Part shown: in pieces, positions 72-7,357 of the stretch
How the letters are laid out: each line of letters starts with the position of its first letter
Numbering within the stretch: position 1 is the stretch's first letter
Notes under the pieces: generated by a model
Databases searched by the model: none
Told to the model about the DNA's origin: nothing
What the model saw: the letters and a program-made list of their open reading frames with translations, nothing else
DNA from: a virus
DNA length: 24,494 nt
Reading direction: 5' to 3' (one strand)
IMG/VR virus record: IMGVR_UViG_3300031857_001316
Location: 1 to 24,494 of that record
Translations under genes and position numbers: made by a program

Positions 72-91
72 GGGGCGAAAGCCCCTTTTTT
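72..91 (+). terminator. Rho-independent terminator with GAAA tetraloop
   Basis: A GGGGC arm (72-76), a GAAA tetraloop (77-80) and a GCCCC arm (81-85) are followed directly by six T. This is a textbook intrinsic terminator. It closes the transcription unit that enters the window and separates it from the methyltransferase/terminase unit. Confidence 0.85.
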
Positions 92-111
92 ATTGCTCAA
101 AAATCAGTTAT

Positions 112-155
112 CGTAATACCTCAGACCTGCACTGTATGCAGAGAAAGGTATTATG
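112..155 (+). promoter_or_regulatory. Stem-loop burying the ribosome site and start codon of the methyltransferase gene
   Basis: Bases 114-121 (TAATACCT) are the exact reverse complement of 146-153 (AGGTATTA). The pairing extends through G113-T154 (wobble) and C112-G155, so the whole ATG at 153-155 and the GG of the ribosome site at 147-148 lie in the outer stem. Inside it, after an internal loop, CTGCA (127-131) pairs with TGCAG (137-141) around a five-base loop. In RNA this would hide the start site; in DNA it could equally be an operator for a dimeric regulator. Which of the two applies is inference; the symmetry itself is seen directly. Confidence 0.6.
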
Positions 156-1385
156 CAAATCAAATATAAAGCGATTGATTCGCTTATTCCATACGTCAAG
201 AACTCCCGCACTCACTCAGATCACCAAGTCGCTCAGATAGCGGCAAGCATAAAAGAATTCGGATTCACTAACCCCGTTTTGCTAGATGAGCATGGAAGCA
301 TTGTGGCTGGCCACGGTCGCGTTATGGCGGCTCGTAAGTTAAAGCTGGATGAAGTGCCAACAATCACGCTTGGATGGCTCACAGACACGCAAAGACGGGC
401 ATACGTGATAGCGGATAACAAGCTGGCATTGAATGCTGGGTGGGATGATGAGATGCTTAGGTTGGAACTTGGCGAGTTGGGCGATCTTGGGTTTGATCTA
501 GATCTCACTGGATTTTCAGCAGATGAGATTGCAGCATTGATGCCTGAGCAAATTGAACCTGGGTTGACCGATGAAGATGAAGTTCCTGAAATCTCAGAGA
601 CTCCGGTTACAGTGCTTGGAGATGTTTGGATTCTTGGAAAGCACAGGCTGATGTGTGGCGATTCGACCAGCATCGATGCAGTTGACAAGCTGATGGATGG
701 CCAAAAGGCTGACATGGTGTTCACTGACCCACCTTATGGCATGTTTCTTGACACCGACTATGACAGTATGTTTGCGGCTGATAAGGCACACCGAAAAACC
801 GGAAAAAGGTTTGATGAGGTTGCTGGCGATCATGATGACTTTGCGCCTGAGTTAATCAGCACGATATTCACCGCATTTCCAGATGCAAAAGAAATTTTTA
901 TTTGGGGTGCCGATTACTTCAGCGACCTGATTCCAAATCGAAAGGATGGTTCTTGGGTCGTTTGGGATAAGCGAACAAATGAAAATATGGATAAGGTGTC
1001 TGGCAATACTTTTGAGCTTTGCTGGTCAAAGCAAAAGCACAAGCGCTTGATTGCGCGAATTTTGTGGTCTGGTCATCACGGCATGGCAAAAGACGACACC
1101 AAAACCAGAGTGCATCCAACGCAAAAGCCTGTGGAGCTTGTCTCGTGGTTTTTTGATCAATGGGGAAAGGACTGCAAGTCGGTCGCTGACCTATTTGGCG
1201 GCAGCGGCAGCACCCTGATCGCCTGCGAGAAAACCAACCGTCAGGCCCACCTGATGGAACTAGACCCAAAGTACTGCGACGTTATCGTCAAGCGCTGGCA
1301 GGACTTCACTGGCAAAATCGCAACACACGCAGAAACAGGAAAACCTTTTGCTGAGGTTAATAATAATGGCAACACGCAAACCTAA
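153..1385 (+). CDS. ParB-domain DNA methyltransferase, beta class (probably N6-adenine)
   Basis: This 410-residue protein has an N-terminal ParB/sulfiredoxin-like domain (about 1-95, with VAGHGRVMAA at 51-60 matching the GHxR box) joined to a methyltransferase (about 150-390). Catalytic motif IV is DPPY at 192-195, and the SAM-binding motif FGGSG (348-352) comes after it, the order of the beta class. HPTQKP (321-326) and ELDPKYCDVIVKRW (369-382) are also typical. DPPY enzymes usually make N6-methyladenine, but N4-cytosine cannot be excluded. No restriction enzyme lies nearby, so it is probably an orphan methylase that protects or marks phage DNA. Placement directly upstream of the terminase genes is common in phages. 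The start codon and ribosome site lie in the stem-loop described at 112-155. Confidence 0.92.
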   Translation: MQIKYKAIDSLIPYVKNSRTHSDHQVAQIAASIKEFGFTNPVLLDEHGSIVAGHGRVMAARKLKLDEVPTITLGWLTDTQRRAYVIADNKLALNAGWDDEMLRLELGELGDLGFDLDLTGFSADEIAALMPEQIEPGLTDEDEVPEISETPVTVLGDVWILGKHRLMCGDSTSIDAVDKLMDGQKADMVFTDPPYGMFLDTDYDSMFAADKAHRKTGKRFDEVAGDHDDFAPELISTIFTAFPDAKEIFIWGADYFSDLIPNRKDGSWVVWDKRTNENMDKVSGNTFELCWSKQKHKRLIARILWSGHHGMAKDDTKTRVHPTQKPVELVSWFFDQWGKDCKSVADLFGGSGSTLIACEKTNRQAHLMELDPKYCDVIVKRWQDFTGKIATHAETGKPFAEVNNNGNTQT

Positions 1386-1791
1386 ACTTGAAACTTCGGA
1401 AGCAAAAAAGACAAACGGACACGGAGGGGCTCGCCCTGGTGCAGGTCAGCCACCTTTTAAACCAACAGATGCCGAGCGGAAACAAGTAGAGGCGCTGTCT
1501 GGATATGGCCTACCGATTGAGCAAATAGCAATGTTAATCCGTGATGGAATTGATGCGGACACGTTGAGAAAGCACTTTTCTAGTGAGCTGGTGTCTGGTA
1601 AGTCGAAGGCCAATGCGCAAATTGGAAGAACGCTATTCCAAAAGGCAATGGGTGGTGACACAACGGCCATGATCTGGTGGAGCAAAACGCAAATGCGCTG
1701 GTCTGAAACGCAAAAGCATGAACTTACCGGTGCTGATGGTGCGCCACTAGAGATTGCCAGGATTGAGCGGGTGATCGTTAAGAATGGGTAA
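1366..1791 (+). CDS. terS: Terminase small subunit
   Basis: I place the start at ATG 1366, nine bases after a GAGG ribosome site (1353-1356); an in-frame TTG at 1348 would overlap that site. The 141-residue product begins with a basic tail containing GGARPGAGQPPF, typical of phage small terminases, followed by a helix-turn-helix (GYGLPIEQIAMLIRDGI to TLRKHF, about residues 44-70). A helical region with MIWWSKTQMRWSETQ follows, a signature seen at the end of many small terminase subunits. It should bind the packaging site on phage DNA and form a ring that hands DNA to the large subunit. It overlaps the end of the methyltransferase gene by 20 bases and the large-subunit gene by 8, implying coupled translation. 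Confidence 0.88.
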   Translation: MATRKPKLETSEAKKTNGHGGARPGAGQPPFKPTDAERKQVEALSGYGLPIEQIAMLIRDGIDADTLRKHFSSELVSGKSKANAQIGRTLFQKAMGGDTTAMIWWSKTQMRWSETQKHELTGADGAPLEIARIERVIVKNG

Positions 1792-3010
1792 AACCCTTTC
1801 CATTGCCACGCCGGAGTGGGCTATACCATTGCTTCAGCCAAGCCGTTACAAGGGCGCATGGGGCGGCAGGGGGTCAGGGAAATCACATTTCTTTGCTGAA
1901 ATGATGATAGAGGCGCACATAATTGACCAGAAGCGCAGAAGTGTGTGCGTGCGTGAAATACAAAAGTCACTGAATCAGTCGGTAAAGCGCTTGCTTGAAA
2001 CGAAAATCGAGCAAATGAACGCCGGTGCGTATTTTGAGGTTCAGGAATCAGTTATTAAGTCACGCAAGGGCGACGGGATGATTATCTTCCAAGGTATGCA
2101 AAACCATACCGCAGATTCGATTAAGTCACTGGAGGGATACGATTGCGCATGGGTTGAAGAAGCGCAGAGTTTAAGCCAGCGTTCATTAGACTTGCTTCGC
2201 CCGACAATCCGAAAGCCGAATTCCGAATTGTGGTTCACTTGGAATCCGAACAAAGCGACTGACCCGGTAGATGCGCTATTAAAGGGCGATACAAGGCCAC
2301 CTGAAGCCGTGGTAATAGAAGTTAATTATATGGATAACCCGTGGCTTCCAGAGGTTCTACGGAACGAAATGGAGTACGACAAGCGCCGAGACCCAGACAA
2401 ATACGCTCACGTTTGGCTTGGCCAGTACAACAAGAACAGCAATTCGCGGGTTTTCCATAATTGGAGAATAGAGGAATTCGAGGCGCCAGCAGATGTAACG
2501 CATAGGCTCGGGGCGGATTGGGGGTTTTCAGTGGATCCGACTGTTTTGGTTCGTTGTCATGTTATTGGCAGAACTTTATACATCGACCATGAAGTTTATC
2601 GGGTTGGCTGCGAGATCATGGACACTCCGGACTTATTTTTTACTGTTCCTGATTCTGAAAAGTGGCCAATGGTGGCTGACTCTGCAAGGCCAGAGACAAT
2701 ATCGCACATGAGGCGAAATGGGTTCCCCAAGATTATGCCAGCGGTAAAGGGACCGAAGTCATTAGAGGAAGGAATAGAGTTTTTAAAAACCTACGATATT
2801 GTTGTGCATCCAAGGTGTAAACATACAATTGACGAATTGACGCTTTACAGTTATAAGATCGACAAACTAACAGGCAATATACTTCCACTTCTGGATGACA
2901 AGAAAAACCACATAATTGACGCATTAAGATATGCTTGTGAGGGTGTCAGAAGGGCGGTTACAAATAAGCCTAAAATATTCGTGCCGTTGCCAACAAGTAA
3001 CAAATGGTAG
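1784..3010 (+). CDS. terL: Terminase large subunit (ATPase and nuclease)
   Basis: The 408-residue protein is the DNA-packaging motor of the terminase_3/PBSX type. The ATPase domain shows Walker A GGRGSGKS (27-34), Walker B CAWVEEA (121-127) and the coupling motif TWNPN (152-156). The C-terminal RNase H-like nuclease keeps its acidic residues: D245 in GADWGFSVDP, D299 in VADSARPE, and the DDKKNHIIDALRYA helix (371-384). Full length is normal for the family. The ATG lies inside the last codons of the small-subunit gene (8-base overlap). The protein docks on the portal and translocates, then cuts, concatemeric DNA. Confidence 0.96.
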   Translation: MGKTLSIATPEWAIPLLQPSRYKGAWGGRGSGKSHFFAEMMIEAHIIDQKRRSVCVREIQKSLNQSVKRLLETKIEQMNAGAYFEVQESVIKSRKGDGMIIFQGMQNHTADSIKSLEGYDCAWVEEAQSLSQRSLDLLRPTIRKPNSELWFTWNPNKATDPVDALLKGDTRPPEAVVIEVNYMDNPWLPEVLRNEMEYDKRRDPDKYAHVWLGQYNKNSNSRVFHNWRIEEFEAPADVTHRLGADWGFSVDPTVLVRCHVIGRTLYIDHEVYRVGCEIMDTPDLFFTVPDSEKWPMVADSARPETISHMRRNGFPKIMPAVKGPKSLEEGIEFLKTYDIVVHPRCKHTIDELTLYSYKIDKLTGNILPLLDDKKNHIIDALRYACEGVRRAVTNKPKIFVPLPTSNKW

Positions 3011-7330: not shown

Positions 7331-7357
7331 AAAGGGGTGGAGAAATCCACCTCTTTT
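7331..7357 (+). terminator. Strong terminator after the coat gene
   Basis: An 11-pair stem (7331-7341 with 7346-7356, one G-T wobble at 7335/7352) is closed by a GAAA tetraloop (7342-7345), and its right arm ends in four T. The left arm begins with AAA, so it would also work on the opposite strand. It insulates the abundant coat message from the tail genes downstream; those must be served by readthrough, antitermination or another promoter that I do not see. Confidence 0.85.

Follow-up and report, generated by a model that had tools for sequence, protein, structure and literature searches.

A two-tier hairpin in the packaging operon leader

The hairpin at positions 112–155 of the window is, at a rough probability of 0.55, a cis-acting RNA element in the 5' leader of the packaging (terminase) operon that would lower translation of whichever gene stands first in the operon. 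The window is the whole stretch of DNA analysed, a virus record of 24,494 bases that encodes portal, coat and stabilisation proteins of the P22 type. From its start it carries the last part of a short upstream gene, a terminator-like hairpin, the 112–155 hairpin, and the genes for a DNA methyltransferase, a terminase small subunit (TerS) and a terminase large subunit (TerL, 1784–3010). The methyltransferase (153–1385, plus strand, 410 aa) combines ParB-N and N6/N4 DNA methyltransferase domains (Pfam PF01555 and PF02195, the latter match below the Pfam cut-off; PHROG 498). It is the first gene of an exchanged cassette whose second gene (1366–1791, plus strand) encodes a TerS of the PHROG 309 type (TerS-A, E 2.3e-15).

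The upstream gene set is closed by an intrinsic-terminator-like hairpin identified by the terminator scan (72–92, plus strand; GGGGC-GAAA-GCCCC followed by TTTTTT). All five pairs of its stem (72–85) were invariant in the aligned relatives, and terminator-like pieces resembling 72–92 are present in many unrelated phages. The 112–155 hairpin itself was ruled out as an intrinsic terminator, as no T run follows its stem and it was absent from the terminator scan in which 72–85 qualified. Elsewhere in the window, a stem of 11 pairs capped by a 4-nt loop (7331–7356) directly follows the coat gene and is probably a terminator.

The outer stem of the hairpin joins a 5' arm (112–121, plus strand; conserved core 114–121, TAATACCT) to a 3' arm (146–155, plus strand; core 146–153) that contains the ribosome-site AGG, TATT and, in this phage, the ATG start. 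Its ten pairs are C112-G155, a G113-T154 wobble, and T114-A153 through T121-A146. An asymmetric internal loop of 5 nt (122–126) and 4 nt (142–145, plus strand, the unpaired AGAA within the purine-rich ribosome-site region) separates it from an inner stem-loop, CTGCA-CTGTA-TGCAG (127–141, plus strand), in which 127–131 pair with 137–141 around a 5-nt loop. A sequence-only reading of this DNA had described these ten outer pairs, with one G-T, and five inner pairs, and every one of them was confirmed, the minimum free energy fold of 60–220 being exactly this hairpin.

That fold had a predicted energy of −37.3 kcal/mol, compared with a mean of −26.2 kcal/mol for shuffles of the same region (z −3.49; none of 200 as stable), a difference to which the neighbouring terminator hairpin contributes part. 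The hairpin alone was predicted at −15.4 kcal/mol at 37 °C, with the Shine-Dalgarno region, the start codon or both held in a stable helix. The predicted openness of the AUG was 0.02–0.05 with the left arm present and about 0.5–0.7 without it; that of the Shine-Dalgarno sequence changed little, from 0.48 to about 0.63. Among the 22 starts tested in the window, the methyltransferase start had the lowest mean predicted openness over −14 to +3 (0.23), close to the 0.27 of the start at 1784. Rfam 15 gave no match at the gathering score in the window, and a search of 1–400 at relaxed E returned two chance-level matches far below gathering.

The sequence-only reading had considered symmetry of this extent over a start site unlikely by chance. 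This did not hold for stem length alone, since stems of at least 10 bp (loop of at most 24, at most one G-T) numbered 3 in the window and averaged 2.98 in 40 dinucleotide shuffles of it. It did hold for the two-tier form, an outer stem of at least 10 pairs enclosing an inner one of at least 5, which occurred once in the window versus 0.01 times per shuffle (one in 100 window shuffles) and in none of 2000 shuffles of the leader (60–220). A two-tier hairpin covering the start site is more elaborate than chance.

One leader in front of two cassettes

A blastn search with bases 1–185 against the collected related loci found four clear leader relatives, L136 (100%), L203 (98%), L212 (96%) and L164 (93% over 66–184). 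A stricter pattern search of IMG/VR contributed L284 and brought the total to five contigs in addition to the window (two further hits, L282 and L283, are the same contigs as L203 and L212). The loose arm-pattern scan of IMG/VR returned at least 120 stretches, mostly chance background; among them were L136 and L164, with strong leader homology by blastn, and L133, with a weak 32-base match (E 0.024).

The relative identical in its leader, L136, has the same first gene as the window. In L203, L212 and L284, by contrast with the window's arrangement, the same 153-bp leader including the hairpin is followed by a gene for a 137-aa Sf6-type TerS (TerS-B; PF20901, PHROG 1482), which belongs to another family than the window's TerS. 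These three contigs are homologous to the window up to base 153 and again from 1808, eight codons into the TerL gene. This indicates that the methyltransferase and TerS-A cassette (replaced segment 154–1807 by blastn, plus strand) and the TerS-B gene are interchanged behind a single leader. Two of the five leader-sharing records (L136 and L164) contained the methyltransferase; a match to it was sought in the other three records, which may be fragments, and none was found. Since three contigs share the leader in front of an unrelated TerS, the hairpin is not a methyltransferase element.

The exchange also alters the two lowest pairs of the outer stem. Where TerS comes first, the ATG lies at 155–157, so that neither pair 112-155 nor pair 113-154 forms; in the window these two pairs derive from the ATG contributed by the methyltransferase gene. 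The conserved core is accordingly eight outer and five inner pairs, eight of the ten outer pairs being kept in relatives, and the start codon lies inside the stem only when the methyltransferase comes first and otherwise just outside it. The ten-pair stem over the ATG described from the sequence alone needs that correction.

L164 has extra genes between the upstream gene's end and the leader (365–1942), one PAPS-reductase-like (PF01507, PHROG 424) and one of PHROG 3633, flanked by repeated fragments of the terminator and of the end of the upstream gene. In a sister phage, L203, an SPFH/Band_7 lipoprotein gene (1947–2753) lies upstream of the packaging operon.

Base changes within the hairpin

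The window differs from L203 and L284 at three positions over 153 bases, all within the hairpin: 128 (T/C), 136 (A/T) and 140 (A/G). L212 has the same three changes and nine more, all within its first 33 bases. Position 136 is in the loop, and 128 pairs with 140 in the inner stem, which reads CCGCA-CTGTT-TGCGG in the relatives, so that T128-A140 became C128-G140 or the reverse, a compensatory pair. The methyltransferase-bearing L164 has the C-G state, plus a C to T change at 112 that retains a G-U pair. The odds that some two of three random changes strike one of 18 pairs are about 0.5%, and less if pairing must persist.

The covariation alignment had five rows, three of them distinct (without L136, which is identical to the window), in which 96.7% of paired-column cells could pair and one pair was changed on both sides; sliding the partner by 1–3 columns lowered the paired cells to 36.7–53.7%. 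The shuffle control of covariation gave 278 of 500, which is indistinguishable from chance and uninformative with three distinct rows. The comparison of homologous leaders that the sequence-only reading had proposed thus yielded one double change, at 128/140, and no compensatory change in the outer stem among the three distinct leaders. The double change and the start-site hairpin in excess of chance are consistent with control by RNA folding, as that reading had suggested; a device for timing the methylase is not supported.

Occurrence in more distant relatives

Arms of the AATACCT/AGGTATT type were found by eye in none of 67 leaders of methyltransferase relatives (68 of 80 loci, less L067; start codons assigned by a simple rule), though small stems of other kinds lie close to the start in a few, such as L060 and L062. 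Among portal relatives, the 66 of 80 loci scanned with a crude ORF rule shared no hairpin with these arms, and their leaders contained several unrelated 8–12 bp stems. None of the 38 leaders with a start among Sf6-type TerS relatives (40 of 80 loci taken) had a hairpin of the 112–155 type; a different short stem, AACCTTTCGCGGAGGTT, recurs in leaders of this group. A scan of the genome contigs collection for the leader returned no matches, the portal relatives there being five metagenome-bin contigs. Leader blastn against isolated phages gave at most partial query cover, and among the matches listed the alignments were on the terminator stretch. The absence of the hairpin from the same place in more distant relatives makes it a narrow feature, and it is probably a young one.

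The recurring short stem, in the form AACCT..AGGT, preceded TerS-A in 20 of 60 distinct leaders, many other rows being misplaced starts inside the methyltransferase gene. We make no claim that it is a structured RNA, because L012, L026, L032 and L052 lose pairs without compensation. In the window, the end of the methyltransferase gene before TerS-A (1327–1366) reads CACGCAGAAAC, then AACCTTT-GC-GAGGTTA, then ATG. This sequence is nearly unchanged as the non-coding leader of Sf6-type TerS genes (L288–L312) and of the L032 methyltransferase, resembling a scar or seam left where cassettes are exchanged.

A like exchange was present in a more distant P22-like lineage (L281 versus L272, L266, L268 and L247), whose leader has no such hairpin. 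There, the methyltransferase plus TerS-A (L281, 1743–3754) and TerS-B (L272, 2146–2938) are swapped directly after a conserved ATGACCACAAAA start.

Proposed mechanism and alternatives

We propose that transcripts reading through the upstream terminator would carry the hairpin, whose left arm would pair with part of the Shine-Dalgarno region and also with the AUG where the methyltransferase is first. Such pairing would lower translation initiation of the first gene of the packaging operon, whatever gene occupies that place. Behind the hairpin lies the methyltransferase and TerS-A cassette in the window's phage and the Sf6-type TerS gene in the sister phages. We infer that the hairpin forms in vivo, lowers translation and has been selected for that effect. 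It looks like an ordinary damping of the first gene's translation and not a special switch for a DNA-methylating enzyme. More tentatively, and on balance doubtfully, the leader may be a fixed translational gate at the operon head, first-gene cassettes being swapped at the stem base and each incoming cassette automatically made subject to the same weak or late translation. Several results count against our preferred explanation of a translation-lowering hairpin: one compensatory event among three distinct leaders, the little-changed Shine-Dalgarno openness together with a start at 1784 that is nearly as closed, an outer stem that has no compensatory change and loses two pairs in the TerS-first phages, and the narrow occurrence.

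Part of this evidence also bears on a neutral origin, in which a chance fold at a cassette recombination seam was kept by the recent shared ancestry of close relatives. Single long stems at chance frequency, only three distinct aligned leaders, and cassette exchange at the same spot in the lineage of L281 and L272 would fit this origin; we consider it unlikely given the rarity of the two-tier form and a compensatory pair among only three changes. A little less probable still is timing like that of T4 gene e, with silent read-through transcripts containing the whole hairpin and a late promoter in the 5' arm producing shorter, translated ones. Removal of the left arm is predicted to open the AUG, such leaders have a precedent in T4 (PMC3014915), and the terminator and hairpin are only about 20 nt apart, which would force transcripts from any local promoter to begin inside the hairpin. 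However, a strict scan for promoters of the sigma-70 type found none there, and the best weak sites score about 5–6 on a weight matrix by which a score of at least 6 occurs 408 times in the window.

It is distinctly improbable that the two-tier stem is an RNase III site, cut so as to free the ribosome site or fix mRNA stability. RNase III sites do occur in phage leaders, and the two stacked helices with an asymmetric 5/4 internal loop would suit one, but the upper stem has only 5 pairs, which is short for RNase III. We give slightly less weight again to an operator or other protein site read in duplex DNA as the dyad TAATACCT-n24-AGGTATTA. Its outer half-sites are invariant in all aligned leaders and their centres lie about three helical turns apart; however, no promoter is evident beside the dyad, and the inner dyad changed symmetrically, with complementarity kept and sequence not, which a sequence-reading protein would not need. 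The retention of the stem rather than the sequence at 128/140 favours a folded strand over such an operator.

Autoregulation, with the site as target of the ParB-domain enzyme or of its methylation, is largely refuted; a methyltransferase-specific operator and the methylase timing and ParB-methyltransferase binding put forward in the sequence-only reading are not supported. The placement of the hairpin over the methyltransferase start had favoured these ideas, but the hairpin does not travel with that gene: it precedes TerS in the three records without a methyltransferase match and is absent from the methyltransferase relatives examined. The earlier interpretation was half right, a cis-acting brake on translation being plausible for the packaging operon and not for the methylase.

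Relation to known systems

Hairpins of the T4 gene e leader type, in which the ribosome site is sequestered (T4 gene e, soc, 49 and I-TevI), are described in PMC3014915. The resemblance lies in the pairing, predicted here, of the Shine-Dalgarno sequence and/or AUG within a helix, which in longer transcripts obstructs 30S binding; unlike in the T4 cases, the gene behind the hairpin described here is exchanged, and for a promoter the 5' arm offers only weak candidate sites. For a non-core phage gene with a sequestered ribosome site, the hairpin of the mobE homing endonuclease of phage Aeh1 appears comparable, with the difference that the present hairpin belongs to the resident leader and not to the mobile gene. 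The staphylococcal phage cabRNA hairpins are likewise folded RNA that derives from a phage's terminase region; the difference is that cabRNA, as described in PMC10686824, is transcribed from terS/terL and triggers CBASS. Titles and abstract openings of the open-licence literature yielded no account of such a packaging-operon leader hairpin. The kind of element is already known (compare T4 gene e), and the lineage-specific instance is new.

If our reading is not true, the recombination seam simply bears an ordinary, if neat, fold. If it is true, the same translational brake would have been kept while TerS and its accompanying methyltransferase were exchanged as a block, which would be a simple way for mosaic phages to remain balanced after recombination.
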